Below, piece after piece: positions 12,712 to 60,659 of a stretch of DNA of 64,000 nucleotides. This DNA is from Symmetrospora coprosmae (Eukaryota; Basidiomycota; Cystobasidiomycetes; Symmetrosporaceae), in assembly GCA_008802785.1 (NCBI GenBank), contig VUYT01000012.1, positions 1 through 64,000 on the forward strand. Reading direction: 5' to 3'. Position 1 is the stretch's first letter, and every line of letters starts with the position of its first letter. The notes beneath the pieces were generated by a model. It was not told the origin of the DNA, made no database searches, and was given only the letters and a program-made list of their open reading frames with translations. The translations under genes and the position numbers were made by a program.

Positions 12712-15420
12712 ATGGATGCCGTTGCGGGGTCTGCATTCTGTGAGTCCTGCCTGACCCTTTGTCCTGGAGGCCACTAACCGGCGAACGGACCTTGTGGTGC
12801 CCGGGTGCCGAGACCGAAGCGGAACAACACGCGCTGACGTTCCCCTCTCTCTTGCTCCCACCCGCTCCCTCTGCGCTGTTCTCCTTCGCTCGCACTCTGA
12901 CCGAACCGACACAAACAGCGATTGATAGCAGGCGGGAATCCAGGTGAGCGAGCGATACTTGGGGGTGGCCGACGTAGGGGAGGAAGGAAGGGAGCAAAGT
13001 ACGGCTCCAGCCCGCGACAAGCACAGCTGACGCATCGGACATGGGCATCTTTGGATCAAACGCAGTGCCACCACTGCCGAATACGACTGCGGGTACGATC
13101 TGAGCCGCCGGAGTAGCAGCTTCTCCACCTCATCTTACGAGATCAGCCAAGGGTCGAGCTTCTACAGTGGACCTCAGTTCCAGCATCAGCAGCAGTACGA
13201 GGTAATCGACCCGTACGCGCAGTTTGTGCAGTCACCTGTGCCAGAGCCGTCGTTCCCGGGCTCCTTGCAGTGCACCTCGCTCCCCACCTCGCTGCCGAGC
13301 CACCTGTATCCTCAGCAGCACCGCTTCGGCTCAATGGACAGCAGCAGCGGGCACCGAGACACCAACAACATGCCGCACTACCGCGTCTTCAGCAATGACA
13401 GCGACAGCTTGTCTGACCCAGAGAACTCGTCGCCCGTAGTACATCAGGCTCTCCCCATCGCAATCAACAATGGTAGCTGTAGCAACGACTCGTGCACAGC
13501 ATCCGACTCTGGCTTCGAGCTCCCAACATCGTACAATGCCGGGAGCTATCACAATCACGCACCGGCTCCCATCGAGATCTCGCCTCTCGTGAATGGTCAC
13601 CTACAGCCGCTCTCCCTCGCTGACGCGGGGATGCACAGCGGCGGTGGAGCCGCTGCATTCGGACCTGCCAGCGCCGAGTTGCGCTCGCCGAACCTCCCAA
13701 GCAGCGGCGAGTTTGCTTCGCCTAAGCGGGTCTACATCCCTCCTCCTGCGAGCATCTCCACTCAATATCCTCCGTATTACTCGAACAACGGCGGCCACAG
13801 CACGACCCGTCAGGCCACTGCACCGCCTCCTGCGTCTTCCACGGCAGGCAGCAGCTCTACCATGCCCAGCGCCACCTCGTCAGTAGGCAGCTACTCGACA
13901 CACAATCCGCCTACTCCCGGACCCGAATCGGCTCCCGCCCAGACCATCGAGTTTGGCGGCAAGTCTACGTTCTCGCCAATGGAGGCCAGCAGCATTGCCT
14001 ATGGCCAGCCGCCCCAGACTGCTCCGCTGCCATTCACAAGGCGCAGCTCTGCCGACGATGCGCCTGCTGGCTTTCCGCATCACCATCAGTACAGCAGTAG
14101 CGCGTCAAGCCAGCACTTCGGTGCACCTCCCATGTCGGCACATCCCACGATGCTCTCGCAACACTTCCAGTATGCGCACTATCCCTACGGACCATCGAGG
14201 CACCCTTTTTCCAGCAGCAATAGTCAGGGAGGAGGGAGCAGCGGATCGACTGCCAATCCGTACGGCAGCATGCAGAGTAACGGGAGCAACGGGTCCTACT
14301 TCTCCGACTATGCCGCGGGCGGCTCAAGCGGAGAGTGTGAATACGATCAGTCAAACCGAGGACTACCACCTCCTTCCGCGGCAGCATCCGTCTACTCCTC
14401 CTCATACCCACTGTCTCCCTTCGACTACAGAACTCCCTACAGCGCAGGCGCATTGGGCGGCAGCTCGACGAGTCCCCCTTCGTCCTCCTTGTTCGAGTAC
14501 GGCAAGCAGAAGGGTCACCAGCGCACCCTGCCACCCATCCGTACGCACCAGCTGCAGCAACAGCAGCATGCGCTCGGCGAAGAGCACGAAGACGAGGACG
14601 AGGAGTTTGATGGCATACCTTCTACATCATACGCCAACGACTACTCGTCACCCAAGATTAGCGCTGCAGCGGCCGCAAGGCTCCTTGACCCTGCACCCAT
14701 GAACCCGACCATGAACCTTGACGATGAGGTCAAGACCATCGAGGCGGCGTCGGGTGCCACCGCATTCGTCAGCAAGCTCTGGTTCCTCCTCTCCCAGCCG
14801 CAGGAGTTTGGCGAGTACATTCGATGGACCGCAAAAGGCAAAGGGTTCATCCTGTCCCACCGTGAGTGCTTCCCCTAATTTGTTCACAACTCAAATGAAG
14901 CTGACGCTCATCTCCTGCTTCTGATCAGACTCGCCGACCTTTGGAGTAGCTATCCTGTCTCGCTTCTTCCGTCACTCAAACGTGAGTGTTAATGTGACGA
15001 GATCTATGACTGCTCTTTGCTGACATAATACGCCGTTCCAGGTCGCCTCCTTCATCCGTCAGCTCAACTTGTACAAGATGGTGCGAATGTCACAGCTGGC
15101 ACTCCTTGAGGACCTCAATGACAGCGGCGGGCGGATCGACGGGGAGCTCACGCACACTGGTTTCTCGCATCCACATCTCCAAAGGGGGCACCCGGAGCTC
15201 TTGCACAGGATCAAGCGTGAGTCCACTTTGCAAGTCGCCTTGTGCTGTGCATTTCCATGCCGACACTCCCGGTCTCACAGCCCAATCCGGTCGGAAGAAG
15301 GGCAGCAAAAAGGACGCCAAGAACAGCCAGAGTGCATCAGAGCAGTCGCCCATCTTGACTTCGACGTCACCTGGCAAGAAGAACAGGACTTTCTCCCAGC
15401 CCGTTGCCATCTACCGGTAG
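12712..15420 (+). CDS. HSF-type DNA-binding transcription factor with C-terminal DBD
   Basis: Likely sequence-specific nuclear transcription factor. Six exons: 12712-12739, 12919-12943 (25 nt), 13066-14861, 14929-14981, 15042-15216 and 15281-15420, 738 residues, every junction GT-AG and in frame. Residues 1-570 are low-complexity Ser/Pro/Gln/Tyr-rich, with an acidic run (EEHEDEDEEF) before the DNA-binding domain. The HSF domain spans about 580-692: TAFVSKLWFLLSQP, FGEYIRWTAKGKGFILSH, then ILSRFFRHSNVASFIRQLNL and GFSHPHLQRGHPELLHRIK. A short basic tail (SGRKKGSKKDAK) follows. No leucine-zipper trimerisation repeat is evident. The gene is probably a regulator of the Sfl1/Mga1/Hsf-like class rather than the canonical heat-shock factor. 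The short first two exons were chosen because they alone reach an ATG in frame. Confidence 0.8.
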
Positions 15421-19905: not shown

Positions 19906-21756
19906 TCAATAGATGAAAGCCGCATTCTCGTACAGATCCAGCATCGGATTCGTCCCATCCTGTAGCGCAGTCGCCTCTGGCTCTCCGTACCTTTCCAGGA
20001 ACTGCCGATGGCTGAGCACCCTGAGTCCCCGGTTGTTGCTCCAGCCAAGCCCGATTCCAGCGGACTTGTCCCTGCTGCTATTGCTCCTTCTCGGTAGCAC
20101 GCGGCGCTCCGCCTGCTCTCCCTCTGCCCCGTCTTGCTCCAGCTCATGGTCTTCGTGCGCCATGACATTGTCGTACATGTCGCGCAAGAAGCGGAAGTCC
20201 GTCGGGAAGAAGATGTCAAACCAGCCCTGCGAGACAAGGTATGTCGAGCAGGTGACGCTCTGCCCTTCGTAACGCGTCTGCACGACAGGCGCCATCCTGC
20301 CCGGAATTGTGTCGGGAAGATAGTCGAAGTCGCTCATGAGGATGCGGTGATTCAAGAAGCGCGATCGGAGCTGCTGCAGGAGGAGCAGCGACTTTGTGGG
20401 GAGAAAGTCCGGCGGCGAGAGATTGGGCGATAACGGTAGCGAAGAGTAGAGCTTCCGCACTGCTGGGTGGCTCGCGAGGAAAGGGTGCAGCGAGGTGTGT
20501 GCGTACTTTGACCCACGCCGGATCTCGCCGCGTATCCGCAGGAACTGCCGGATGAGCGGGTCGCTCACGGGCTGGTACACCTCGGAAAAGTCGCCCCGGT
20601 CGTCGATCTCGACCATGCACTGCAGAGGCGTGTTGTCGTCCACCTTGTACCGGACAATGTCGTGCGAGAGGTTGTCGAGCACCTCGAATGCCAAGAAGAA
20701 GCACGGGTCCGTCACGGTCCGGTTCCAGTCAAAGATGCTCTGCTGCACGACCGTCACTCGCTCAGAATGCCCTGCCTTCTTCGCCCGCGCTTCCTGCAGC
20801 GCTGCGAGCTGGGCAGAAATTTCAATGGTGTGGTACCGCGTGCGCTTGTACACCTCGGGCTCCTCGGCTCGCAGGAAATCGAGGATCCCGGCCATCAGCG
20901 AACCGTTTCCTGCTCCAATTTCGAAGATGTTGAGGTCGTTGTAGGGGTATAGCGTGAGCTTATACTCGGTTGCAAGATGGTGTGCGACCGCTTGTGCGTA
21001 GTACGGCTGTCAAGGGTTCGTACGCGGTGCGGTCAGTTTCGCACCACAATCAAGCGAGGGAAGGTCGCATACCTTGAAGAGCTCGGTAGGAGTATGCCAG
21101 ACCTGTCGTCCCAGCCCTGATGTCTTCTCGTCTGCGTCCTCGAGCAGGCCATACGTCTCCGCAACGGTCCTGTCCCAGTCGCTCATGTTCCGCATGCTGG
21201 CAAAGTCAAAGCCCTGCCTCCGTCGCCTCCCTACTGCCTTTGCCTGCTTCTCTGCCTGCTCTACTGACGAGTGCATCTGCGCAGACCCTCCCGCCGTGAT
21301 GGATGTGGCAGGCCCTGCCGTTTCCTGCATGACGTCGCGCAGCTTCTGCGCGTCCACCACGGCATCTGGATCAAAGATGACGGCTTGCTTTGGGAAATAG
21401 CCATAGTTTGGGTTGTACAGGCTGTCGTCGATAAAGTCCCGTGCGAGCATGCGCACTTTGCGGGGTGGTGACGTGTGCCGCTTGAGGTCGTTGGCCGTCA
21501 CGGTTGGGTAGCCCGCTCTCGCGGCCGCGTCGACGGGCGTGGGGTCGAATGGGTTTGGGTTGAAGTTGTAGCGGACCTCCTCGCCGTCTTCCTTCCCGCC
21601 TTTTGCGCTGCCATTGCTGTTGCTGCTGCCGCTGCTCCCTGGAGGACGTCGCGCACGGACGCGCTGGGCGGCCGGTGAGCTCGAGAAGGGTCGTCGTCGT
21701 GCATGGTGCCTGGACGAAGAGGCCGCAGCCGTCAACGCTCTGCGGGACGATGACGC

Positions 21757-28240: not shown

Positions 28241-29327
28241 TCAGACGAGTTTCGGCTTGATGGTTGACCAGAGCGCAGCTCCGGCTGGGTGTAGCAGAGA
28301 AGGACATTACTGATCTGGTCCAGCTCGCATGTCGCATGAGAGACAAGACACTCACCGGTCATGCCTGCTGAAGCAATGAACATTGGTCGTACGCCCGCCG
28401 TGCTCTTCCAGATGAGTCCTGTGGAAGCGCCCGCGAGCATGCTGCCGTAGATGTCGTGTCTTCCGCGGTACTTGTCCAGACTCGAATTGACACCATTGTA
28501 CAGCAGCGCTGTATGCCGTAATGTATGAAAGCAGTCTCAGTAACGGCTTCGATCTGGCTGTACGGAAAATCCAAAAGCGACAGTGCTGACCGAGGACTCC
28601 CGCGTTGTTCCCGACAAAGCTCCCTCGCCGCGTAATGCTGTTGAGCACTGTATTCAACCGCACCCTGAAGTTGGGCGACTTCAGTGCGGATGCTGCTGCT
28701 GATGCGCGTGTCGTCGACGCAGTGGCGGCTGATGCAGGGTTGGTGGAGGTGGAAGCTGCTGTCGCCGCTGCCTCTGGTGCCGCTGTCTTCAACGTCGAGG
28801 ATGTCGAGGCGGCCACTGCTTCTGCTGCCTGCTTCAGGGCAGGCTGTGATGCAACTGCAGCTGCTGCTGCTGCAGATGGCGCAGGTGCTGCTGCTGAGGC
28901 CATGGGTATCCGTCTGGATCTCAGAAGACCCTCGCGGAGGCCCCAGAGACCGCCTGCAGTCAGGCCTGCGGTCGACAATGGTACAGTCAGACGCGTTCAG
29001 CGTCACAAGGTAGCTTCGAGCAGCATCAAGCTCACCAGCGAGGTAGGTGGTTCCCGTTCCATAGCAGAGCTCGTCACTCCAGCCTCGGGTCGGCACGACC
29101 GTCTGTCCGCCCTCGAGGTCGTTGAGCTTTGCATCGTCTAGGCTCAGATAGTCGAGATCACCATCGTTTAGGCCTGCGAGCGGATGCAGCGATGCGACGC
29201 CCGAGAGGAGCTGGTTGGCGTTGGGAGCGAGAAGCTCATCCTGCGGCGAGGGCGACGACGAGGCGAAGCGGGCGCCTCGGAGGAGATCGTTGGCGCTCTG
29301 CGGATCGGACGAGCTCGTGCTGGCCAT
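28241..29327 (-). CDS. TIM23: Mitochondrial import inner membrane translocase subunit TIM23
   Basis: Channel subunit of the TIM23 presequence translocase in the inner mitochondrial membrane. The N-terminal 100 residues are hydrophilic (intermembrane-space receptor part: LDYLSLDDAKLNDLEGG). The Tim17/22/23 core follows: GTGTTYLAG spliced to LTAGGLWGLREGLLRSRR, then NFRVRLNTVLNSITRRGSFV, LLYNGVNSSLDKYRGRHD, SMLAGASTGLIWKSTAGVRP and the short last exon ending STIKPKLV. Between TM1 and the RLNTVLN block lies a roughly 77-residue Ala/Ser/Thr-rich segment that yeast Tim23 lacks. The start at 29327 opens MASTSSSDPQSANDLL. It diverges from ZIM17 with 239 bp between start codons. Confidence 0.9.
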
Positions 29328-29566
29328 GTCTGAATGGAAGAAACGTGCGATGGATGCTGCTTTGGTCTCCCGTTGGTGTAGTCGATGCAGAGCCGACGTT
29401 GCTGCTGCCTCTCTTTGGTGCTGGGCTGTCCCCGTGCTCTGACGCGGAAAAATCCAGAAGGCGGACCGGACCGGGGTGGCTCTGGTTTCCGTCGACCTCG
29501 TCGTACGCAGCAGTACAGGAGAACTGCGAGCACGCCACCACACACTATCTCGCATTGCTGCCAGCC
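29328..29566. promoter_or_regulatory. Shared promoter, TIM23/ZIM17
   Basis: 239 bp separate the start codons of two divergent genes for mitochondrial import. The interval must hold both core promoters. No specific factor site was identified by eye. Confidence 0.6.
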
Positions 29567-30451
29567 ATGTCCGCTTCTACTGCGCTGCGCTGGGCTCTTC
29601 CCTGCCGGACAGGGCTCGTCTCGCTCGAGAAGCTCTCCGCGTCATCAGCAGCACGGGCTAGCAGAGAAGCACGAAACGGCATAGCAGCATCGCGGCCATA
29701 TTCTGCACACACGCCTATCCATCGGCAATCTGGCGTCCTGGCAGATCTAGCGGCCAGGAGCAGCATTCTTTCGAGCCCGCAAGTCACGCAGCCTTTCTCC
29801 GCATCGGCAGCCTGTAGATCCTGCTCCGCCAGGCTGGCATCTTCTTCCAGCGCCTCCTCCCCCTCCTCCTCGGCTGCCTCCCCACCTCCCTCATCTCCTT
29901 CCACGTCACCAAGCCCGTCGGAAACGTCATCACCAGCTTCAACGCCACCGCCTCCTTCGTCGAGCGAGCAGGCCAATCCGCACCAAGAGGACGATCCCTT
30001 CTCGTCGGCTGCCTCAGAGGAGCTGCTACAGGCACCAGGCACCTCAAAGGCCAAAGGGCAGCCTATCGGGAAGATCGAGCGACGTCTGAGCATCACTTTC
30101 ACCTGCACCGTGCCCGACTGCGGCGAGCGTTCGTCCCACGAGTTCTCGCGGCAGGCGTACGAGAAGGGCATCGTCCTGTGCCAGTGTCCCAAGTGCGAGA
30201 CACGGCATCTCATGGGTGAGTTCTCTCGATGTATCCACCCCTTGCTACCCTCCGAAAGTCTGGACTGACTTGGACATTGCATTTTTTTAGCGGATCATTT
30301 GGGCTGGTTCGACAGCGATGATCTCACCCAGGGAGGCAAGTACAGGACAGTCGAGGAGCTCCTTGCAGCCAAAGGAGAGCACGTTTCTCGGGCACGAGTG
30401 CTGGCAGACGGGACTGTTGAGGTGGAGAGCGAGAGTGACAGTGACAGGTAG
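29567..30451 (+). CDS. ZIM17: Mitochondrial zinc-finger chaperone of Hsp70 (ZIM17/TIM15/HEP1, DNLZ)
   Basis: Keeps matrix Hsp70 soluble and functional during import by the TIM23 motor. Two exons, 29567-30215 and 30291-30451, 269 residues. The first 80 residues are basic and Ser/Ala-rich (presequence), followed by a Ser/Pro-rich linker. The DNL zinc finger reads LSITFTCTVPDCGERSSHEF, then AYEKGIVLCQCPKCETRHLM and, across the intron, ADHLGWFDSDD: the Cys4 pairs CTVPDC and CPKC and the HLGWF motif are intact. Acidic C-terminal tail (EVESESDSDR). It converges on PMS1, with 118 bp between stop codons. Confidence 0.92.
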
Positions 30452-30569: not shown

Positions 30570-33500
30570 TCATTCTCCGCGCCGCAATCTGGCCCAGCTC
30601 GCCGCTTCGATGCAAAAGCGCGAGTTCCGAGGCGGAGTCTGCAAGTTCTTGAGCCAGCGCATTGTGTTCCTGCCATGCGGACAATTCCACGGTTGGTCCA
30701 TCGTGCCCATATGTCGGACTATGCTCGTCATCTGCGAGGTATTTAGCACCCGGCCGACCATGACGCTGCTGCGGCACGCGAGCATAGCGAACAGTTTGCG
30801 GGTTTTAGACGGGCGGCTGGACGAAGCTACGCGCGTGAGCGGCGCACACTTGGCAAGTCGAGGAACACAGCGTACTCACAGCATGCCTGAGCCAGTGTGG
30901 TCTCTAAGCAGGAACAGCAGCTCCTCGAGATCTGTCCGATGCAAGTGTCAGAATGAGCGACCCCGGCCTAACGGTATCACTGGCTGCACCTACCATCGAT
31001 CGTGAACTCGGTCTTTTTTGTGGCCTTGGCGACTGGCATTGCGACAAGCTTGATCCGCTGTCCCGATGGCGCATCTTCCTCGACCTCAATCTCGAATCCG
31101 TTGAAGCGCAGCACGTCTTCGTGTTCGATGGCCAGTAGTTCGTCCGATGCCGTCAGGTTCAGCTCGCGTGGCCTGTAGGATTCGAGGTGTCAGTCGGGGT
31201 CGAGCCTCTACGTGACAGCCGGCGACACTGACCGGATAAGCCGCTGCGAGTCAATCTTGGTCACCAGCTGGAGTCGCTCAAAGTTGTACTTCTCGTCCGA
31301 AGCGTGCTGGCTGTGAGCCGGTAACAGACAGTGTCAGATGGCTCGCACCATCCCGCCGCTCGGCCCAAGTGCATGCACTGACTCGATGATCATCAGGTCA
31401 TCATGTCCGCCTGTCTCCCGAGCTTTGCCCTTCGCATGCCGCCGTCGAGCAATGATGAACGCCAGGTTGAACTGCCCAACAATTTCCATTTCCGCAAAGT
31501 CGGCCTTGCTGACGAGGCGCGAGAGGGCCTGTTCCGCTTGCTGCGCATTGTGCGAGATGCCTGCAGCTTCCAAGTCTTCGTCTTTGTCATCGCCTTGGGC
31601 ATGCTCACCATCGTGTGCACGGGGACTGCCCTTGCCGCTCTTGGACCTGGCTTCCACACGCCGGCGTAGACGAGCCATGTCGATTTGGACGCTTCCCTCG
31701 CTCTCATTCGCCGGCTCCTTGCGATTATCCGTCCGGACCACGGTGGGCGTCTCGGCTTCCGTCTGGCTCATAATGCTCTCATCAAGGACACCAGAGCTTG
31801 CGTCGGTTCGTGCTGTTTGCTGTCTGCTGCGACCTGGGATTGCCGGTCCTCCAGGCGCGTCGTACTCTTCCGCCTCGCTCAGCCTGTCCCCGAGCTCGGT
31901 ACTCGCGGCCATCCGGCCGGTATGCATCAGTGTGGCTGCTTCGATCTCGTCTCCCTCCTGCTCATCCATCTCTGCTTCTTCTTCGTTGTCTTCTTCGTCC
32001 TGCTCCAGCTCGATTTCATCGTCGTCCTCGTTGTCCTCCAGCTCAATGGCACTCTGCGCGGTCGCAGCCGGAAGGGCCGGGGTGCCGGCTGCAGCGAGCG
32101 TCCTGAAGTGGTTTCGGTCCAACAGCTGGTTGGACGTGGACGGATCAGCGGCAGTCCTCGCCTTCTTGCGCGTTGCGCCATGCTCCACGGAGCGGGATGA
32201 GCCGATCTGCAGATTCCAACTTGCACCGCGGGTGTCGAGGGTCATCTGCAAGCTCTTTCCCTTCGGCGCGGGTAGTCCGGTACTGTTGTAATCATTTTCT
32301 GGCTCTGGTGACGGCGAGCTGACTTCGGCAGCGGTGAACTGGGGACCGTCTTGATCTCGTTGGCTGTACAGGCTCGAGGCCGGCGACAGAGACATGGCAG
32401 TGTCCGCTGCGGCCCCTACTGGTCCATCTTCGTGCACATCGAGATCAGATTGGTCGCCTTGACCTGGCTCTTCGATCCCTGCGTCAGTTGCCTCCTCCTC
32501 CAGTTGAGGAGTATCCTCGTCTATCGCTGCGCTATCGACAGTACGCGATCTCGACCGCTCGATCAGGCCATTGCCCTCATCGTCTCCTTCTCGCGGCGTT
32601 TGCGGGCGCGACGACCCCGCCGAGATTGACCCGCTTCTTTCACTCGATTGCCGTGTTCGCGCCTGTGTCTGCGCCTCTATCTTCGCCTGCAGCCCGTTTT
32701 GAGGAGCGACCGCTGTTCCGAGTCGTCCGGTCCGCGTAAGGTTCGCACCGTCCGCGGCGTAGGTCGAGCGGTAGGGCTGAAACAGCGCATCGAGGGCGGT
32801 CTTCAGCGCGTCTACGAGGTTGCGCTCGGAGTGGAGGAATATAGACCGCTTGTCTGGTGAGACGTTCACGTCGTACGAAGAGGTGGGTAGCTGAAAGTCG
32901 GCAACTATGGATGGGAGATGGTTCGGGAGGTAGCCCTTGTACACTTCGTTGAAGGCCTTTGAGATGGCCTGCGGTCAGATCGTGCGAGTCAGCGATAGTG
33001 CATCGGATAAAGGGATGAGCTGCTCGGGACCGCACCTTAGTCTCGACAGGCCGGCCGTTGATGAAGAAGAATTGCCGGTCCGAGCTTGTGCGCCCGCTTC
33101 CTGCAACTGGCTTCGAGATGAGGCCCGTCACGCGCACCTGTGTGGTTCTGAGAACCCTGCATCAGCACAGCGCAAAAGCTCATGGTTTTTGGCTACAATC
33201 TGCAGAAACGCACAGGTCCGCAACTCCGGCCAGCTTTAAGACCCGCTTCTCGGCCTCAACGTCGAGCGTGATATCGAAGTCCATCAGAGTCAAAGCCGCC
33301 TTTGCCGTAAAGAGGATCGCATAGTTCTCGCGAACATTCTTGCCGTCGGTCTTGAACATGCTCTGGACCGGCTTCTTGCTGAGCATGCGGCATGAGGGCT
33401 CAGTACGAGTCCTCCTTGTCAAGTCAGGCAGGGGCGGAAGATCGCTCGAACGCACGCCAGTTGATTCGTGACGGACAAGCGGACGCCTTCACTGATCAAG

Positions 33501-37014: not shown

Positions 37015-38991
<1,977 letters not shown>

Positions 38992-43897: not shown

Positions 43898-46237
<2,340 letters not shown>

Positions 46238-46730
46238 GCGCCGCTCGCGCAAGATCGGGTCAGTCCCCATTATTGGTGAGTTGCTATGGACCGACAGGTT
46301 CGAAAATCTAGATTCAAGCTGACCCGGCCGTCTTTCTGCTGCACAGTAGTCCCACCATCGTTCTCCCGTGATTTCGTGTATTTCAACATTTACACTCGTA
46401 CACAGTGTCCTGGCCTTCGGTCTCTACCTGTCAAACGCTTCGGTTGTCGCCTCTCTAGAGCACACACCGAGCTGCCTTGTAGCCTACCGCAAAAGGACTT
46501 GAAAAAGGAGACGCTTGTCTCAGCTTCAACCGCATCATACCGTGTTGGCCCGCAGCTGTGACTGGCTTGTTCAAGCGCCGACTCTGCTCCGCCCTGCTTA
46601 CGTGTCCGCATCGCGATGACATCGCATCTTGCGAGCAGAGTGCCAGATCCGGGTTGCCACCACTTAGGGTCCAGATGCGCAGGTCTGGACAGCCACCTTG
46701 CTCATTGCATGTACACATTGCACACCCTTA
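46238..46730. other. Convergent intergenic, SAH1 and KHDC4-like gene
   Basis: 493 bp between convergent stop codons. No conserved frame was recognised. Confidence 0.5.
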
Positions 46731-48537
46731 CTACAATCCAGGCGGAGGCGGCATATTGCCATACTGCCCTTTTGCTTGTCTTGACCTATCCTCCCCTCCA
46801 TAGCCCTGATTGTAAGGCGACCCCGCATAGCCCTGTGCCGGAGGCTGCTGGCCGCCGTACGAGCCCTGCGTGGGCGTTCCATATGCGTTGACACTCGAGT
46901 GCTGCTGCGCGGCAGCCGTCGCGGGCGTTGGGGCCGCAGGCTGCGCGGGGGGCTGCCCATCGCCAGTGTACCCCTGCTGCTGGTAGTAGAGCGCCATTTG
47001 GGCATAGTAGACGATGGTTGCGGGGTCCTGCGAGTGACCCGCGTAGAATTGGAGCAGCGTGACGTCGATGGTCGGTGCGAGCGCTTGCGCCTGGGCGATG
47101 ATGTCGCCCGGCGGTCCAGAGGGGGAGCCGGCGGTGGGGGCTGGAGGAGCGGGAGGGTCGGCACTGCCTGGCGGCGGGGGAGGAGCAGATCCGTCGGGCT
47201 GCAAGGCGAAGGGAGACTAGTGTCAGAAAGGCCATGAGGAAGCGAAAGAGAGAGACGGAGCACACGCACCGGAGGAGGCGGAGCGGTGGCTCCTGGCGGC
47301 GGAGGCGGGGCGTTGTACGACGGCGGAGGAGGGGCATAGCCCTGCTGGTGGTGCTGCTGCTCGCCCTGCTGCCACTGGTCGAGCACAGCTTTCGCCTTTG
47401 CCCACTCCTCCTTTACAACAATCAGGAGGTCTTCCGCGAGCTCCTTTGCGCGGTCGACCATGATCTGCTCCGGGCCCGAGACGTGGACGTGCATGGGCTC
47501 GTCGCTCTCCCTGCCCGTCTCGTTCTCGACAAACCCGCTGCCCATGCCCTTGATCTGGACGCGCGCGGCCGTCTCGTTCTGAATGTACTTTACGAACAGT
47601 CCCTGTGGCCCGACAATCTTTGCGCGGACGTTGAAGTTGCGCAGGGGCTGGAGGCCGATGGGCAGCTTCTCCTCGGGCCACTTGCGGCGCTCGCGCGGGC
47701 CCTGCTCGGCCAGGCGCGCCTCGCGCTCCTCGCGCGCTTTGGCGCGGAAGTCCGTCACGAGCGGGGCCATCTCCATGTCGAGCAGCTCCTCGATGGCGGC
47801 CACGCCCTTGTCGAGGATCTCCTGCGACGTCGCAGAGACGTGGATGTAGAGCGGCGGATCCTTCTCGGTCGCCTTTGTGCGGTCCGGCAGCCATGTACCC
47901 TTGGTGACGACCAGGGCGCCTGTGTTGGCTTTGACCTGGATGCAAGGAAGCAGGAAGAGAGTCATCCCGCGGATCCGTCAGCTTTGCAGAAGTGGCAGCA
48001 AGTGCAGTCTCGGGAGCAACGCGCGCACCTCATCTTGGGTCGATCCGCGCGTCAGCAGGTACCTGTTCCTGCTGTCGTTGATGTCAATGTCCTTTGTAAA
48101 GGTCCCTTCGTCTGGGTGGTCCTTCTGGCCTGCAGGACTGCCCGAGCCAGACTGATTGGGCTTTGCGTACTGTGGAGGCGAGAGCATGGGGGAAGGGACG
48201 GACAATGGCAAAGATCATCAGCAAGGCCAGGCCCTGTCTTGCTTCCCGCATTCCATCGTGGCTTGCCCACCTGAGCAGCAATTCTGGCAGCAGCGGCAAC
48301 GGCAGCGTCGGCCGCGCTCAGAGCTGGGGCTGGTGCGTCCGAGCCATTCGCTGGAGGAGCGGCGGCGGCGGCAGATGATGGAGCGTCTTGGCCATTGGTC
48401 GTACCCTCCAGCTTTGGCTGTTTGTTCTGTTCTGAAGCAGCTGCAGCATCGTTCGCCCCTGCTCCTGCTCCTGCTCCTCCTGCGAGTCCATCATCCTCCT
48501 GATCCCACTTGCGCTTCCTGACCTCGGTGGTGGACAT
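46731..48537 (-). CDS. KH-domain RNA-binding protein, KHDC4/BLOM7-like
   Basis: Predicted RNA-binding splicing-associated protein. It starts MSTTEVRKRKWDQEDDGLAG (Lys/Arg-Trp-Asp start common in this family), then Ala/Pro-rich linker. The first KH-like module contains FTKDIDINDSRNRYLLTRGS, TQDE, then VKANTGALVVTKGTWLPD and LYIHVSATSQEILDKGVAAI. The second, SF1-type KH domain contains RNFNVRAKIVGPQGLFVKYI, QNETAARVQIKGMGSGFVE and PMHVHVSGPEQIMVDRAKEL. A Pro/Gln/Gly/Tyr-rich tail ends NMPPPPGL. This differs from true SF1/BBP by having two modules and no zinc knuckles. Introns interrupt the N-terminal part, the linker and the tail. It diverges from eIF5 with 682 bp between starts. Confidence 0.82.
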
Positions 48538-49219
48538 CCCTTCGCTGTCCTGCTATGCACGGCAGATGCACGCAGATGTCTGTCCTGTCTTGGACTGCTG
48601 CCTTTGAATTGGCCTCGAGTTGTATGGTTGGAGTAAAGTGGACGAGTGTGTCTGCGTGTCCTCTCCATTGCAGCTTTCCTCCTCCGAGCCAGTTCTCACC
48701 TGTGCCACAGTCTTTGCCGTTTGCTGCCTCCCTCGTCCTCTGCGGCTGCCTGCCTGCCTTTCGACCGACCGACCCACCCGCCGCCGACAGACTGACAGAA
48801 GGACGACAAGCAGAGCGAGCTGATTAGTGGACAGAAGAGACAGCAAGCAGCAGCCAGCCAGCCAGCAGCACCTCCAATTCAAATCAGTCATCATCCCTTC
48901 CTCCACCCAGGGCCGCGATCTGCATCCCCTTAGTCTGGGAGAGCCTCCGGACAGTCACAAAGCAGCAGCATCCTTGGAGCGCAGCCGTGAGCAGCGAGCG
49001 GCATCGGTAGCTCGTCGCTCCATCTGGCTGTCATTGCTGAGCAGGTCTATCCGCTTCTGCTCCCCCAGCTTTCATGTCGTTGCCCCCTTCACAATCTTGT
49101 CCATCAGTCACCATCGCCGACCTGCACCATCCGAGTCGTCCCCAAGCAGCTCCAGCTAGCATACACCAGCGTCAGCGTCACCTCTCGTACACCTAAGACT
49201 CTCTTCACACCAGAACATC
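48538..49219. promoter_or_regulatory. Intergenic and shared promoter, KHDC4-like/eIF5
   Basis: 682 bp between divergent start codons. It contains runs of CCAGC/GCAGC repeats around 48835-48870 and a pyrimidine-rich zone before the eIF5 start. No separate gene was recognised. Confidence 0.5.
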
Positions 49220-50655
49220 ATGGCGGGCATCATCAACATTGCCGGGTCCACCGGCCAGAACGCTTCAGACACGTTCTACCGCTACAAGTGCGTGCTGGCG
49301 CGGCTTGTCCGTGTCCCATGCGCACATTCGCTAAGCATGTAATCTGACTGCGCCATCGCAGAATGCCCCAGCTCCTCGTCAAGGTCGAAGGGCGCGGGAA
49401 CGGCATCAAGACCGTCATCCCCAACATGGCCGACATTGGAAAAGCGCTCGCTCGCCCCGCCTCGTACCCGACAAAGTTCTTTGGGTGCGAGCTAGGTGCG
49501 CAGACGACCTTTGACGAAAAGAACGAGCGCTACATTGTCAATGGCGCGCACGACGCCGGACGGCTGCGCGAGCTCCTCGCCACCTTCATCGACAAGTTTG
49601 TCCTCTGCGCGTCGTGCAAGAACCCAGAGACGGACCTGTACATCACAAAGGACCAGACCATCTACCGCGACTGCAAAGCGTGCGGGCACCGCGCCGACGT
49701 CGACATGAAGCACAAGCTCACCACGTTCATCCTCAAGAACCCGCCCGAGAACGCTAAGAAGAGCAAGTCCTCCAAGAAGGGCAAGGGCGACAGAGGCGGG
49801 AGCAGCAGCAAGAGCGGGGCCACGTCGCCAAAGGCAGAGGAGGACGATGGCGCCATCGAGGCCGGGTCGGACGACGAGCTCACCCGAAAGATCGAGGCGG
49901 GCGCGGCAGACATTTCGGTCGATACGAAGGAGGGGGACGAAGGGTGGAGCATTGACACGTCCGCTGACGCCGTCAAGAACCGCCAGCGCGCCCTGCAGGC
50001 CGGCGTCCAGTCGCTCCTGCAGAGTGGCGGGAACGGCGGGGACGACGACGAGGATGAGGACAGCCCGTACACGGCCTTTGAGGCGTGGGTCGCCAGCGAG
50101 GCCCGCGACGGCTCTGCCTCGGACGTCGACATCTACAAGAAAGCCGCAGAGATGAGCATTGAGAAAAAGTACAAGACGCTTCAGTACCTGGTCCAGGGCC
50201 TCTTCACGCCTACGACTATCCTGTCTGGCGAGGAGGTCGAGAAGCACGCCCCGCTCTTCAAGAAGCTCATCAATCTCGCGGGCGATAAGGGCACAGAGAA
50301 GCACCTCAAGTCCGTCCTTGGCGGCATCGAGGTCTTTGTTGGCCTCCTCCACCCGGATCTCATTCAGGACAAGACCGTCTCCAAGATCCTCATGAACTTC
50401 TACCAGGCCGACATTCTCGACGATGAAGAGCTGCTCAAGACTTGGTGGGTCGCATTCCGCCCCGCGTGCTTCAGGTAGCACTTGCTGATAAGGGATCCCG
50501 TCTGCAGGGCCTCGCACGTCTCGAAAAAGTACGTCGACAAGACGGTCTGCAAGAAGGTCAGGCGCGCCGCTGCGCCTTTCATCGCTTGGCTCGACGAGGA
50601 CGAGGAGAGCGAGAGCGAGGAGGATGACGGCAAGGACGAGGCCGACTCGGCCTGA
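49220..50655 (+). CDS. TIF5: Translation initiation factor eIF5
   Basis: GTPase-activating protein for eIF2 during start-codon recognition. Three exons: 49220-49287, 49362-50444 and 50508-50655, 432 residues. The N-terminal eIF2-beta-like domain contains the GAP arginine context [40 protein letters not shown] and a Cys4 zinc finger ([12 protein letters not shown]... DCKACGHR). A Lys/Ser-rich then acidic linker leads to the C-terminal W2 HEAT domain: [40 protein letters not shown] and [20 protein letters not shown], ending in an acidic tail ([20 protein letters not shown]). The end of exon 2, intron 2 and exon 3 were copied into two downstream tandem units. Confidence 0.95.
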
Positions 50656-50777
50656 GCGCGCTGGATCACACGTCGATCGCTTGGCTTCTTCTCGTTGTGA
50701 TCGTTTCCATCAAACCCATCTCGCATTGTTGAGTAACTAGTTTCAGAGCAACTTGGTACCGCATACACGCATCTCAA

Positions 50778-52069
50778 TCAGGCCGCAGCTACCATCCTTC
50801 GCATGCGGGCATTCGCTGCGGCACCCTGGGTCAACGAAGCCTTGCTCGTCGGAGGCTTCGTAGCTCGTCCCGCTTGGATAACTTTGGGAGCGCTTGCAGT
50901 GATCTGCCGCCTGCGAGCGGGTATGCCAGAGCCGGGCGTTGGCAATATTCGCGGAACGATGCTCTCAGGCACAAGCGGGCCATTGCTCGCCTTGGCAGGA
51001 CCCGGCCTTTGGACAGGTCTGCGGCCGGGAGGCGCGCCCAAACGCAAAACCTCGACGACAGGTCCCGGAGCTGCCGGTCTGATGGTGGGCGGTCCCGCTG
51101 AAACACCATCTCTAGCACGGCCGATAGATGCACTCGGGGCAGCCTTGAGTGGTAATGACGACATCTCTCGAGAGCCCTGAATGGGCAGCCTGTTTGGGTG
51201 CACCGCTGCTCGGCTCGATAAGATTGGAGGTCCTCCCAATGCCGCCCGAGCACTGGCTGGCGGATTGCCCAATGTGCTACGAGCTTTGCGCACGTTGTTC
51301 CCGCCCTGATAGGGCCTGATCTGGGCCCCGTCGCCAAGAGTCGAATTCCCGTAGTGATCCTGATTGTACCTGGCCCAGGTGGTGCGAGGATCGCCGCCGG
51401 TGCCAGATCCGCTAGTCTTGTTGTCGCGATCTCTCCCAGCGGTCGGGCCTACAGTGGCAGCAAAGGCTCTGCTCCCAGGGCGTCGCCCTTCCATTGCAAG
51501 ATAGACATAGCCTGCAGCCGAAGTCGAGTCGCGGACGCGCTGTCTTGAAAGCCCATAACGAGATGATCTAACGCCAGCACATAGCATACCAGGTCCGTAC
51601 TCAGCGACGGGAAGGTCTGTGGTGTTGGCGGCTGTCTTAGCCCCGTCACAACGGGGACCCATGCTGGGCAGTTTGGCGGTCTGTCTGCTCCTGTTGGTGC
51701 AGTCGCTTCAAGATTACCGGCAGATGTCCGATGTAGATCAGAGCCTGTCCGGAAGTGCGCTGGGCCCTGACTGAGGAGGTCGAAATGCACTTGTCCAGTA
51801 GTAAGCAATACCTTGTAGCATCTCTCGCGCGGATATCGCGGGAAGGGGACAGGCTGGTCGTGGATGTCCCTGACAGGATACCAGTGGTCGCGATCACCGA
51901 CGCGACGCTTTACCCGTAGAACCCCCACATCGGAGCGACTCGCAGGCTCGAAGACGCCGGATTCGCAATCTGCACCCCATACCCAGAACGAGATGCTCTC
52001 GCCTCCTTGGAGCCTCGGCGGCGGGGATGGCGTACTTCTACTAGGTTCCGTGGGATGGAATACTGGCAT
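50778..52069 (-). pseudogene. Unknown family, paralogue A, apparent frameshift
   Basis: First of three tandem paralogues of a family I do not recognise. The N-terminal domain (about 190 residues) has ISFWVWGADCESGVFEPASR, HWYPVRDIHDQPVPFPRYPR, ERCYKVLLTTGQVHFDLLSQ, TSAGNLEATAPTG and WVPVVTGLRQ. The reading frame changes within roughly 51510-51550, between LALDHLVM and GYVYLAMEGRRPG, where paralogues B and C are continuous (YWLALNSF and WVLLAQE in B). The second part is basic and Pro/Ala-rich, with GPAKASNGPLVPES, QAGRATKPPTSKAS and the end RMRRMVAAA. The protein has no signal peptide or membrane segment. The shift may be a real inactivating indel or a sequence error. It converges on eIF5. Confidence 0.7.
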
Positions 52070-52519
52070 GACGAGATGTGGTGTCTCGAGGCAGCAAGGC
52101 TGAGCAAGGAGGAGATCAGATGCGTTTAGAGGGTCTCGGGCTGGAGATGGAGAGAAGGGGGTGGGAGAGGATGAATGGAGCTCGAAAGTTCGCCGTCACC
52201 GTATGCTGGAGGCTTTACGCTTGAAGCGGAGCAGAGAGCGTCCCTGGACATCAGGGAGCGTATTTGTAAGCCGACCCTGCATCGCCTCGACCGCCCAGGT
52301 GCCAGACAGACAGAGAGATGCCGTGAGAAAGCATCCTGACCCACGGAGAACCCTGGTGAGAGACGGTGGCAAATCAGCTTGTCGACCTAGTGCATCGCCC
52401 GGACTGCTAGGGATCTGGTAGACTGGTCAGACCATGCGACGTTGCACTTGACAACCGACTTCAAGCGTTCGCTGCATGCGGCAATGACGTTGCAGCCGCA
52501 CGCAAGCTTCAAGCGGGGT

Positions 52520-52741
52520 CTTGCGATGCTCGGGACTTGGTGAGTCGCATGTCCATTTCGTGTCTCTGCTAGCTCTTGTGACGGACAGTCACATCTGCAG
52601 TTGTAGGGCCGGCTTCGCGCATTTTCGAGGACTGGCAGGACTGCCTGCAGGAGCGTCAGGCGCGCTTCATCGCTTGGCTCGAGAAGGACGAAGAGCGGGA
52701 CGAGGAGGATGACGGCAGTGACGAGGCCGATCTGGCCTGAG
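52520..52741 (+). pseudogene. eIF5 3'-end fragment, copy 2
   Basis: A block like the end of eIF5 exon 2 and its donor (GGGACTTGGTGAGTCGC near 52537) is followed by an intron-like stretch ending in CTGCAG. An exon-3-like segment follows that can be read as RFIAWLEKDEERDEEDDGSD and ends LA-stop at 52738-52740. The part matching YVDKTVCKK is degraded while the acidic tail and stop are kept. The intron is retained, so it arose by DNA duplication, not retrocopying. No start codon or upstream eIF5 exons exist here. Confidence 0.8.
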
Positions 52742-52859
52742 AGTACTGTATGACGTTGATCGCTTGACTTGTTTTGTATTAGTCGTTTCCATCAAATTCA
52801 TTTCGCATCGTTGAGTAATCAGTTTCAGAGCTACTTGGTATTGCATACACGCATCTCAA

Positions 52860-54116
52860 TCAGGCCGCAGCTGCCATTGGTCGCAATGCGGGCGCGCGGG
52901 CGTTTGCTGCAGATTCCCATGTTCGTGATGCCTTGCTCGTTAGAGGCTTTGTGATTCGCCCCGCTTGGACACCTTTAGCAGCGTTGGCAATCGTGTGCCG
53001 CGGTCCCACGGGGATGCCGGAGGCGGGCGCTGGCAATGTTCGCGGAACGGTGCTCTGGTGCACAAACGAGCCTTTGCTCGCCTTGGCAGGACCCAGGCTT
53101 TGCACAGGTCCCCGGCTGGGAAGCGCGCCTTGACGCAAAGCCTTGACAACAGGGCCCGCAGCTGCCGCTTGTATGGCGGGCGATCCTGCTCTGTTGAAGT
53201 GTGTGGAGCCTTGAGTAGATCTACCCGAAGCACCTTTGGGTGGCATGGACGCTCGCACTTCGGAGCTGGCAAGAGACAGCACTCTGTTCGAGGGGATCGG
53301 TGCTTGCTTCGATGTCGGGACAGCTGTGTTGGCTGCTCCTCGCATAAGGCTGTTGAGCTTGCGAGTTGACTTAGGCAATAGAGCGCGAGCTGTGCGCGTA
53401 TTGCCGCTGCCCTGGACTGCTCGGATAGAATCGCCAAGAGTCGAGTTGGAACAGTCATTATACCGAAGCCAGGTATCGCGGTAGTAGGTGTCTCCGCCAA
53501 ATGCTCCGCTACTGTCACCGCCTCGGCCTTCTCCTCCAGCAGGATCTGCCCGAAAGAGCCTGCCCGTCGCGGGTGGCGCCTCCTGTGCCAGAAGGACCCA
53601 TGTGTAGCGCGTGTTCGCATTCCAAGTGAAGGAATTCAGTGCCAGCCAGTAGCCTAGAGAGTCTTGGGATGTGTCTGGAAATCGCGCGGCGGCGTCTGAC
53701 GATATGGGGTTCGTGATCACGGGCAACCAATCGTGACGCGTCGGCAACCTGTCTGTGACAGTCGACCCAGCTGCCTCGAGGTTCCCGTTCCACGTGCGAC
53801 GTAGTTGGCCGCCTGCACGGTAATGTGGTCGTCCCTCTTCAAGCAGCTCGAAGTGTGAGTTGCCGAAGGACAGTATCACCTTGTAGCATACTGAACGCGG
53901 ATCGCGGGGAAAGTAGACAGGCTGATGGTTGTCGACGTGTTCGACCGGATACCAATAATCGCGCTGGTCGACACGGTGCTTGACATGTAGAACGCCGTTG
54001 CCTGAGCGCGCAGGTCCGAAGGGCCCAGCTGCACACTTGGCACCCCACACCCAGTAGGTGACGGTAGCGCCGCCTGCCGGTGGCGGTGTTGCGGTCAAGT
54101 CCCAGGACACTGGCAT
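52860..54116 (-). CDS. Unknown family, paralogue B, intact
   Basis: Intronless, 418 residues, the complete member that best defines the family. N-terminal domain: TYWVWGAKCAAGPFGPARSG, YWYPVEHVDNHQPVYFPRDP, RSVCYKVILSFGNSHFELLE, EGRPHYRAGGQLRRTWNGNL, HDWLPVITNPI and SLGYWLALNSF, then TWVLLAQEAPPATG. The C-terminal half is Ser/Arg/Pro/Ala-rich and basic, with GPAKASKGSFVHQSTVPRTL, GVQAGRITKPLTSKAS and the end ALRPMAAAA. There is no signal peptide, membrane helix or known catalytic motif. Being Trp-rich, the N-terminal part is probably a small beta-rich domain; the tail is probably disordered. Function unknown; cytosolic or nuclear location is an inference. Confidence 0.75.
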   Translation of the reverse strand: MPVSWDLTATPPPAGGATVTYWVWGAKCAAGPFGPARSGNGVLHVKHRVDQRDYWYPVEHVDNHQPVYFPRDPRSVCYKVILSFGNSHFELLEEGRPHYRAGGQLRRTWNGNLEAAGSTVTDRLPTRHDWLPVITNPISSDAAARFPDTSQDSLGYWLALNSFTWNANTRYTWVLLAQEAPPATGRLFRADPAGGEGRGGDSSGAFGGDTYYRDTWLRYNDCSNSTLGDSIRAVQGSGNTRTARALLPKSTRKLNSLMRGAANTAVPTSKQAPIPSNRVLSLASSEVRASMPPKGASGRSTQGSTHFNRAGSPAIQAAAAGPVVKALRQGALPSRGPVQSLGPAKASKGSFVHQSTVPRTLPAPASGIPVGPRHTIANAAKGVQAGRITKPLTSKASRTWESAANARAPALRPMAAAA

Positions 54117-54434
54117 GACGAGGTCGGCTGCTGATAGGTAGCGACGCGGCGCGAGCAGGTAGTCCGGGGCGGTTCAGCTCCAAAGCTCGGATAGGATCAG
54201 ATCGACCCCTGAACTAGCTTTCGTTCTATTGAAGGCTCTGTGCTTGAAGCAGAGGAGAGAGCATGCAGCGAGTCAGGAGCGTATTTGTATCTCTAGGCTA
54301 TGCATCGCCTCGACGGTCTGCTTGTTCAGACCGAAAGCTGCCGTGAGACAGCACTGGGATGACCTTCGCATCAGACGGTGGCCAGCGAGCGTGTCGTCCT
54401 TGTGCATCGCCATTGCCGCAAAGAGAAGGTCTCA

Positions 54435-54610
54435 CGCTGCTCAGGACTTAGTACGTCGTGTGGCTGTTTCGTAACTCCGGTACCCCTCGCTGATGAGCAG
54501 CCGCATCTGCATTTGCAGGGCTGGCTTCGACAATCTAGAGGGTTACGTCGACAAGACGGTCTGCACGAAGGTCAGGCGCGCTGTTGCGCCCTACATTGCT
54601 TGGCCCCGTA
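54435..54610 (+). pseudogene. eIF5 3'-end fragment, copy 3
   Basis: The exon 2 end (GCTCAGGACTTAGTACGTCG near 54437) and intron-like sequence to TTGCAG at 54520 are followed by an exon-3-like segment reading GYVDKTVCTKVRRAVAPYIA and W. It then diverges; the acidic tail is lost. Copy 2 kept the tail and lost YVDKTVC, so both derive independently from a fuller source. Confidence 0.8.
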
Positions 54611-54694
54611 TCAGATCACTTGACCCGTCTCTTATCTGTCGTTTCCAACAACCATATCTCCTTGATCGACCAGGGCCCTTTAGATGCATCTCAC

Positions 54695-55762
54695 TTAAGC
54701 CACTGCCATCATCCTAAGGCCTAGGGCGCGGGTGCGTACTAGAGGACCATTGAATGACAACGGCTTCTGAGGTCGCCCAGCTTGGATACCTGGTGGAACG
54801 GCCGCACTGGAACGATGCGGGCCAGCTGGGACATCGGTGCCCGACGCTGAAGATAGTCGCGTGTCGGTCTTTCGGAGAAGAAGCGGGCCGCTGCTCGCCT
54901 TGGCAAAATCCGAACCCGCACCCGGCTTCTGCCCAGGTTTGCGGTCCTGAGGCATGCCTGAACGCAGAGCGGCGATTGGAGGTGCCGGAGCTGCCGGCTT
55001 GTCGGCAGGCAGTCCTGCTACAATGCCGCGCTGCTCATTATTCCTCCGAGTCCAGTTGCCAGGTGTCGATCCACTGTTGTTGTCCGAGGTCCCGATGCGG
55101 CGGGTGCCGCGAGCATTGCTGTGCCCGCCAGGCGCTCTCCTCCAGCTGGCCACGGAGCGCTCTTGCCAGTAATGCACCTCAGCAGGGTAGAAGAGACTGT
55201 TCGACGTTCCTGGCCGTCGCGCTCGTGCCAGAACCACCCAGCCTGCGGGCTTGAGCACCGCACCCAGGGCGTAGCGGTCCAATGCCAGCCAATAGCCTAC
55301 GGAAGTCGACGGAGCGGTCGGGAAAGGCTCCGAGCCTCCCACCCCATGACGCCCCGTCACGACGGGCACCCAATTGGGACACCCTTGCGGCCTTTGTGCT
55401 CGCGGCGGCGCGATCGCTTCTAGATTGCCTGAAGATGTCTGGCGAAGCTCGCTGCCCGTACGGTAGATTGCTTCGCTTTCTTGGAGAAGATCAAAGTGCG
55501 CTCTCCCGGTCCACGACCCCACCATGTAGCATACCGAGCGCGGTTCCAGCGAGTAAGGGACAGGCTTGTCGTTATACTTGACGTCATACCAATTGTTGCT
55601 GAACTTGACACGTAGTACTCGCATTTCGGCACCACTCGCATCCTGTAGGATACGAGCTTGGCACTGTTCACCCCATGCCCAAAAAGAGACACCGTCTGGG
55701 CCGACAATGGGTGACCGACTGGGCGACGCTGTTCTTGGTTCAGTGTTCCAGGACACTGGCAT
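54695..55762 (-). CDS. Unknown family, paralogue C, shorter
   Basis: Intronless, 355 residues. N-terminal domain: VSFWAWGEQCQARILQDASG, VLRVKFSNNWYDVKYNDKPV, RSVCYMVGSWTGRAHFDLLQ, LRQTSSGNLEAIAPP, CPNWVPVVTGRHG and TSVGYWLALDRYALG, then GWVVLARARRPGTSNS. The C-terminal region is shortened and more diverged but keeps FAKASSGPLLL, GIQAGRPQKPLSFNG and the end ALGLRMMAVA. It is the most diverged member, suggesting the oldest split or relaxed constraint. Shared start MPVSWN/MPVSWD supports the start at 55762. Confidence 0.72.
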   Translation of the reverse strand: MPVSWNTEPRTASPSRSPIVGPDGVSFWAWGEQCQARILQDASGAEMRVLRVKFSNNWYDVKYNDKPVPYSLEPRSVCYMVGSWTGRAHFDLLQESEAIYRTGSELRQTSSGNLEAIAPPRAQRPQGCPNWVPVVTGRHGVGGSEPFPTAPSTSVGYWLALDRYALGAVLKPAGWVVLARARRPGTSNSLFYPAEVHYWQERSVASWRRAPGGHSNARGTRRIGTSDNNSGSTPGNWTRRNNEQRGIVAGLPADKPAAPAPPIAALRSGMPQDRKPGQKPGAGSDFAKASSGPLLLRKTDTRLSSASGTDVPAGPHRSSAAVPPGIQAGRPQKPLSFNGPLVRTRALGLRMMAVA

Positions 55763-56401
55763 GTCTAGAGACCCGCTGTTTGTAGACAGCTAGGGTTGTG
55801 CGGGTGGTCGGTGTCGGTCGGATTCAGCTGGAGTGAAGGGGAGACAGCAGACTGCTGCTAGGCTTTGAGTGGCTATCGTTGCTGTGTAGGCAAACTTGGA
55901 AGGAGCGGAGGAGAGCGTCCATCGAGTCATGCAGCGTATCGATATCTCCCCCAGGCATCGCCTCGATGGTCCAATTGCGCTGACAGCAAAGTGCCGTGAG
56001 AAAGCGTCTCCGGTAACCCTCGGCAGGATCGGTGGCGAATTATCATCTCCCCCAATGTGCATCGCCCGGACCGCAACGTATTCCGTAGGTCGGTCAGACT
56101 ATGAGGCTTGGCGACTGTCGGGCGGCTCTATAATGCCCGGTGCATGTGGCATGTTGTTATTGCAGCTGTCAGCACTTTCAAGGCAGGAGTCAGGTCATCA
56201 CGGGATATTGTGCTGTGTCCGATCTGTGCCTGTGAAAACCGTCAGTGCAGGCTGTAGTGCGAGTCGTCTGTATTGCAAGACTGAGAGACATGTAGCTACA
56301 CCCTCGACTGCAGCCCTCGAGCGGATTCACCCTTTTCCTGCGGTTTCTGTTGCTGATCTGACCATCTATGAGCGCGCGCCGCGGTCCTTGTCTTAAGGCG
56401 A
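55763..56401. other. Promoter of paralogue C and edge of duplication
   Basis: 639 bp. The part to about 56190 matches the upstream regions of paralogues A and B; similarity stops where the eIF5 fragment begins in the other units. The rest holds no recognised gene. Confidence 0.6.
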
Positions 56402-57965
<1,564 letters not shown>

Positions 57966-59740: not shown

Positions 59741-60659
59741 ATGAAGGCCAGTCCAATGCAGCGTAATCCGTCAGCGACCAGTGTGCGGACGTCAGTATCT
59801 GCGGCGACGAGCGAGACGAGCGGGCGCGGAGGAGGTAGTGGAGGAGGAGCGGGCAGCGCGACTGCCAGGACCAAGAAGAGCAGCCGGGCGCGGGACCTGC
59901 TCAGGGACTACTATGGGCTGGCAGGCGGCAGCAGCGACAGGACAGCATCATCATTGCCGAGTGTGGGCGAGGATCCGCTGAATCTCGGTATGTCGCACTG
60001 CGCTGCTGAGCGCAAGAGGCAAACAGGCGGGCCTGACGTTCGGGTCGCGTCCTGTGGGCATAGACTCGCGCTCATTCTCCTCGCGCAGCTACGTGCAGCA
60101 GCTCCTCAATACCTCGACGCTGCCTCAGCTGCTCAAGACTTCTGCAGAGCTTTCATCCTCCATCGCGGACCTCGAGAACGAGCGCCAGAGCCTAGTCTAC
60201 AATCACCACCATGAGCTCATCGACGCGAGCGTCACCATCAGCAAGATGAAGGTGCGCGCCGAGAGCCTCGATACGACCCTCGAGCAGCTCAAGTCTGGGC
60301 TCGCCAGGTGCAGCGAACTGGACAGCGGCCTCCGCTACGGTGCAGGCGCGGCTGGACCTCCGTCTAGCCAGGATGACAGTGGCAAACAAGCCGACGAGCC
60401 AGACTGGGATCTCGTCCTCGGTACAATGCTCGACCTGCCGCTCAGCATGCAGGCTGCTAGCAAGGAGGAAGCTCTACGGTTGTGGGGCACGTACGAGCCC
60501 GTGCTGCGCAAGTGGAGAGACGCCCGCGTCGAGGGCATCGAAGACATCGAGAGCGACTGCAGGGAAGTACTAAACGTCAAGACAGGGGGGGAGGCACTAG
60601 CCGTTTCGTCCGCCACTACACGCCGGCGAAGCGGCAGTACCATGACGATACGTCCATGA
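59741..60659 (+). CDS. VPS51: VPS51, GARP/EARP tethering complex subunit
   Basis: Subunit of the GARP complex that tethers endosome-derived vesicles at the trans-Golgi. Two exons, 59741-59987 and 60064-60659, 280 residues. After a Ser/Gly-rich N-terminus comes RARDLLRDYYGL and, across the intron, EDPLNL-DSRSFSSRSYVQQL. LNTSTLPQLLKTSAELSSSI, ADLENERQSLVYNHHHELID and SVTISKMKVRAESLDTTLEQ follow, all typical of the Vps51 N-terminal coiled-coil region. The last 25 residues (after DCREVLNVK) look unlike the family. A run of seven G at 60585-60591 lies there, and another frame stays open to 60982, so the true C-terminus may differ. Confidence 0.82.

Follow-up and report, generated by a model that had tools for sequence, protein, structure and literature searches.

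We analysed a window of 64,000 nucleotides of Symmetrospora coprosmae (VUYT01000012.1, positions 1 to 64,000), which is the start of contig C3 in a genome of 20,053,935 bases and 77 contigs. The results show three adjacent homologous genes, paralogues A, B and C, beside the gene for eIF5, and downstream of both B and C lies DNA derived from the 3′ end of eIF5. It is very probable that the three genes form an orphan family confined to this single locus, which was duplicated together with the end of its neighbour. Taken as a whole, the explanation that we propose, an eIF5-linked tandem orphan family whose products would be small binding proteins, seems to us somewhat probable; the binding role, suggested by the predicted proteins, is its doubtful part.

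All three copies are minus-strand genes within a repeated unit and thus form a tandem array, flanked by eIF5 (plus strand, ending at about 50655) and a partial short-chain dehydrogenase-like gene (minus strand). The last eIF5 exon and the exon limits were inferred by comparison with the protein P0002. An initial annotation, made from the letters of the stretch, had placed three paralogues here; open reading frame (ORF) regions are indeed found in these positions (Table 1), and their paralogy is far beyond chance. B matches the N-terminal part of A with an expect value (E) of 1.4e-40 (49% identity), the tail of A with E 3.4e-34 (47%) and C with E 1.4e-26 (39%). For each of the seven motifs described as common to the copies (W-x-WG-x2-C, R-x2-CY-x-V, HF-x-LL, GNLEA, W-x-PV-x-T, AKAS-x-G and QAGR-x2-KP-x-(T/S)), a six-frame translation of the whole 64-kb window contains exactly three instances, one in each copy. 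A holds up as a paralogue but not as a single open frame: its N-terminal part and its tail-homologous stretch are in separate frames, with an intron or a frameshift as the candidate causes, and among the many formal GT/GC-AG introns found in silico none was preferable. As read from the sequence, A may now yield the N-domain form alone. This frame break, the eIF5 relics and an upstream module shared by the copies are additions to that first reading.

Codon-frame-specific constraint is present in the N-terminal ~165 residues and is clear only there, not in the tail. Identity at the first, second and third codon positions of the N-domain is 0.62/0.69/0.45 for A-B, 0.59/0.67/0.52 for A-C and 0.55/0.65/0.49 for B-C, which is the pattern of protein constraint and is not seen in the tail, and 13 of the 15 alignment gaps are multiples of three. 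In the read frame of the N-domain, the ratio of nonsynonymous to synonymous differences per site (pN/pS) is 0.51-0.67, whereas the two shifted sense frames give 0.83-1.28 and the antisense frames 0.55-1.49.

The eIF5 relics span all or part of the last eIF5 exon, the last intron and about 12 bases of the preceding exon, and both matches stop at nearly the same eIF5 position, 50432 for B and 50430 for C. Self-comparison of the window aligns the C relic with the last eIF5 exon at 90% over 61 columns (61 bp), and B with A at 76% over 571 columns (52636-53190 against 50538-51099). The latter stretch runs from the tail frame past the stop and through the 3′ flank into eIF5-derived DNA, so that much of the A-B tail similarity is DNA history. 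The uneven identity along the units suggests later exchange between copies. Based on the sequence, the array most likely arose by tandem duplication of a ~2-kb unit including the eIF5 3′ end: an ancestral order of eIF5 and a converging gene X would have undergone two tandem duplications of a unit starting inside eIF5, with the full eIF5 kept only in the leftmost unit. The relics retain different parts of the last exon, its end (the acidic tail, readable in frame) downstream of B and its first half downstream of C. The end of eIF5 and the stop of the tail frame of A are separated by about 120 bases (50655-50778); since the two genes are convergent at this distance, their 3′ untranslated regions may overlap.

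Upstream of the copies, the blocks GGCGATGCAC, TCTCACGGCA and TCGAGGCGATGC are invariant in all three, approximately 186-330 bases before the ATG. Three invariant runs of at least 9 columns were found (P 5e-5 by column shuffling; P 0.001 for runs of at least 8). All five occurrences of the word GGCGATGCA in the window fall within the three flanks, and none of 100 shuffles reached this count. Two paired patterns built on the module gave three exact matches each in the whole genome, all upstream of the copies and one per copy, and the reversed-pattern control gave none genome-wide. A likely role of the module is that of a promoter element, which would keep the copies co-expressed.

The product would be a soluble protein with a folded N-terminal domain and a basic, probably disordered tail. 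The N-domain contains conserved Trp, Cys and His residues; the tails have isoelectric points (pI) of 11.7-11.9 and net charges of +18 to +26. Averaged over 19 residues, Kyte-Doolittle hydropathy peaks at 1.43, and within the first 40 residues of each of the three N-termini it stays at 0.49 or below. By this hydropathy count, which is not a trained predictor, A, B and C have no signal-peptide-like or strong hydrophobic stretch, in line with the earlier statement that no signal peptide or membrane span is seen; the N-terminal signal peptide expected of secreted effector-like proteins is not found. The constrained N-domain would supply a specific contact, and the tail would likely bind a polyanion (RNA, DNA or ribosomes) by charge and not by exact sequence. 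Through the module upstream of each, the copies would be expressed together; they may have different partners.

The structure check suggested in the initial annotation gave AlphaFold models with a mean predicted local distance difference test (pLDDT) of 41.8 from three sequences and 47.5 from four, both too poor to exclude a known fold. They predict, with low confidence, an N-domain made mostly of beta strands. For the second model (pLDDT 47.5), the only one compared in this way, Foldseek and VIA-align returned nothing usable.

Several points weigh against the proposed explanation. The tail has no codon-position pattern (identities of 0.65/0.66/0.61 for A-B, 0.58/0.51/0.53 for A-C and 0.51/0.50/0.53 for B-C), a length divisible by three is seen in only 15 of its 23 alignment gaps, and its pN/pS of 0.76-0.95 in the read frame falls within the 0.76-1.10 of the other five frames. 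Across 244, 253 and 184 codons the read frame of the tails is free of stops, whereas the other 15 frames contain 74; this makes translation of the tail likely, though the frames were selected as long ORFs and the absence of stops is partly a selection effect. In A, the tail is moreover out of frame with the N-domain. The composition of the tail may itself mean nothing, because unconstrained GC-rich DNA also gives a translation rich in Ala, Arg, Pro, Gly and Ser, and binding is inferred from charge alone. In the N-domain, pN/pS is also low in the antisense f1 frame (0.55-0.72), as expected from the third position that this frame shares with the read frame. The ratios of nonsynonymous to synonymous substitution rates (dN/dS) are 0.24, 0.41 and 0.35 for the three N-domain pairs, in favour of constraint there, and 0.59-0.73 for the tail; in several pairs the synonymous rate (dS) is close to saturation. 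Both structure models are poor, which makes the beta prediction weak, and copies and products are known here from sequence alone. The basic tail reported as common to A, B and C is there, but codon-specific constraint is absent from it; the description of the family as fast-evolving suits the tail and fits the N-domain less well. Overlapping ORFs in alternative frames are present in the tails of A (50831-51337, minus strand, 168 aa) and B (52940-53620, minus strand, 226 aa); they look alike by eye, and the codon tests favour no frame there.

The guanine-plus-cytosine (GC) content by codon position is nearly flat in the tails (0.62/0.65/0.56 in B, 0.66/0.65/0.60 in C and 0.63/0.66/0.59 in A), and in the array as a whole the third position has 0.56-0.64, whereas eIF5 has 0.85 and the aconitase-family gene 0.76. 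A rather flat profile is seen as well in two other long ORFs of the window, which are unproven as genes (0.55/0.63/0.63 and 0.59/0.58/0.65). Low third-position GC would suit chance open frames in duplicated non-coding DNA, as would the unconstrained tail, the frame break in A and the non-coding DNA that the duplicated unit clearly also contains. We consider this reading very improbable: the N-domain shows frame-specific constraint in all three pairwise comparisons as well as gaps that respect the codon, and the upstream blocks are conserved.

To delimit the family, we searched the genome with B, C and the N-part of A, and found no further credible copy in its 20.05 Mb. The N-part of A gave two weak matches, on contigs C44 (E 0.048) and C47 (E 1.06), both interrupted by a single in-frame stop; they were judged chance because they sit opposite longer ORFs, which by eye resemble in translation a urease-accessory-type GTPase and a carboxylesterase. 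A match of C to contig C60 (E 0.15) concerned the tail only and was set aside; these three loci were compared with the N-part of A alone. Against 5.8 billion proteins, the sole match of B was P0001, its own sequence, and a profile of the three sequences added only P0122, a 306-aa protein on a 2373-base contig of the European Nucleotide Archive that shares 302 of 309 columns with C (98% identity). The eIF5 from the same locus, used as a positive control, found 4402 proteins in the same database. Identity among the best 120 of these was 99% for one (on a contig of the Joint Genome Institute), 66-78% for 21 and 52-57% for 98. The named relatives at 53-57% within these 120 are, judging by their genus names, presumably Agaricomycetes, which suggests that the organism comes from a basidiomycete-like lineage sparsely represented among named genomes. 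The word-based search did not find the array family in the relatives at 66-78% eIF5 identity, which are present in the protein database. The longest contig exceeds 27 kb (27-321 kb) in the eIF5 relatives P0008, P0009, P0011, P0019 and P0021. As far as this can be tested, the earlier designation of the family as lineage-specific is thus borne out.

It was also called unrecognised, with which our searches agree. B, C, the N-part of A and its tail, and then the three N-domains, had no credible match in Pfam, nor did PHROGs or NCBIfam give one, all three scanned to E 10. The only candidate was CbiJ, matched by the N-part of A alone among the three members (E 0.22 and 0.17; 11.5 bits against a cut-off of 28.6). 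In the PDB, the N-domain of B as a single sequence had no match and that of C one at E 1.2, while the profile picked up three designed repeat proteins, the dTor toroids (E 2.1e-9, 5.8e-7 and 0.65), in which no individual stretch passes by itself; we rejected them as a repeat artefact. A match of the N-domain to a characterised family, looked for throughout, was not found. Over 49000-57600 there is no structured RNA at Rfam gathering scores, and literature searches on orphan genes, de novo genes and eIF5 gave no title concerning the locus.

These searches bear on the possibility that A, B and C are members of an old and otherwise ordinary protein family whose fold and function are known elsewhere and whose sequence has drifted past detection. 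Since the protein search requires shared words of five residues and scored 7993-7994 candidates, distant homologues can escape it, and the profile was built from only three sequences; the paralogues themselves are just 35-50% identical, and the conserved Trp, Cys and His resemble those of a real folded domain. We nevertheless regard such an origin as possible but rather unlikely, given the lack of credible matches in Pfam, NCBIfam and PHROGs even at E 10, PDB matches to designed repeats only and the near-flat codon-position GC of the array.

De novo birth from non-coding DNA beside the eIF5 3′ end, followed by amplification, would make the tail a former non-coding sequence that is hardly selected. 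The nearly flat GC of the tails and their lack of codon-specific constraint are consistent with this, as are the absence of detectable relatives in the protein database and the site itself, a gap between two conserved genes. However, other long ORFs of the window share the flat composition, the N-domain is already under clear purifying selection, and the ancestral non-coding state is hypothetical. On balance, we find it unlikely. It is still less probable that an ancestor-less domain was born beside eIF5 in one little-sampled basidiomycete-like lineage and was then selected, gained a promoter and was amplified in place. If this were true, the eIF5 fragments would record each step, and transcripts through them would be antisense to the eIF5 mRNA.

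The isolation of the family and a codon-position composition that differs from that of eIF5 could also point to a gene brought by a virus or mobile element. With the three-sequence alignment, none of 72 pattern matches in viral contigs and none of 44 in prokaryote genomes was confirmed as a relative, and the N-domain of B, the only query used there, had no match in plasmids. The window is eukaryotic. Of 20 other ORFs scanned, nine matched Pfam at E <= 1e-4 (Table 1), none to a mobile-element or viral family. We therefore attach a very low probability to this origin. A 550-aa open frame at 13226-14878 (plus strand) had no Pfam match at that threshold.

Table 1 Features of the eIF5-linked array and of the surrounding window.
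Feature	Position	Strand	Details
Paralogue A, N-domain frame	51449-52069	minus	206-aa ORF
Paralogue A, tail-homologous stretch	50778-51512	minus	frame differs from that of the N-domain; any join to the N-domain is hypothetical
Paralogue B	52860-54116	minus	418 aa, one open frame; N-domain ~1-165, basic tail 166-418 (pI 11.7, charge ~+23)
Paralogue C	54695-55762	minus	355 aa, one open frame; N-domain ~1-171, basic tail 172-355 (pI 11.9)
eIF5, convergent neighbour and source of relics	49363-50655	plus	PF01873, E 1.5e-33; first exon further upstream, outside these coordinates
Relic of eIF5 3′ end downstream of B	52527-52773	plus	68% over 264 columns to 50432-50690
Relic of eIF5 3′ end downstream of C	54436-54604	plus	71% over 171 columns to 50430-50590
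Upstream module of A	52279-52399	minus	GGCGATGCAC ... TCTCACGGCA ... TCGAGGCGATGC
Upstream module of B	54302-54411	minus	
Upstream module of C	55955-56066	minus	
Aconitase-family	283-2079	minus	Pfam
Methyltransf_28	19906-20895	minus	Pfam
DNL zinc finger	29129-30268	plus	Pfam
DNA mismatch repair C-terminal domain	31334-32944	minus	Pfam
Aminotransferase I/II	37602-38615	plus	Pfam
Adenosylhomocysteinase	45531-46055	plus	Pfam
KH-domain BBP-like	46664-47965	minus	Pfam
Short-chain dehydrogenase-like, partial	57204-57539	minus	three related Pfam matches, two below cut-offs
Vps51/EXO84/COG1	60054-60659	plus	Pfam

As taxonomically restricted genes arranged in tandem, the family is of an already known kind, with a duplication record that can be read. 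Tandem duplicates that include part of an adjacent gene are also known in general, and the array resembles them in that each unit holds one gene beside the end of a convergent neighbour; it differs in that the gene is an orphan and in that the relics are uneven (61 bp at 90% within ~71%). For taxonomically restricted (orphan) genes of fungi, the relevant passages of PMC12684174 name duplication as one route of origin. Like the genes described there, the array has no detectable homologue beyond the organism and near-identical sequences, and its function is not known; unlike them, as far as those passages go, it has relics of a named neighbour gene that record the duplicated unit, and an upstream module that is common to the copies and matched exactly nowhere else in the genome. 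With BSC4, a de novo gene of baker's yeast covered in part of the same source (PMC12684174), it shares orphan status. For BSC4, related species are described there as carrying, where the gene would be expected, a disabled site with premature stops, whereas the array is known here from the locus of one genome.

Orphan genes are common, but tracing where they came from is usually difficult. In this array a piece of the conserved eIF5 gene borders each copy, so that the sequence reveals the duplicated unit, its breakpoints and the uneven exchange that probably followed. A related genome assembled across the eIF5 locus would make de novo birth and lost homology testable against each other.

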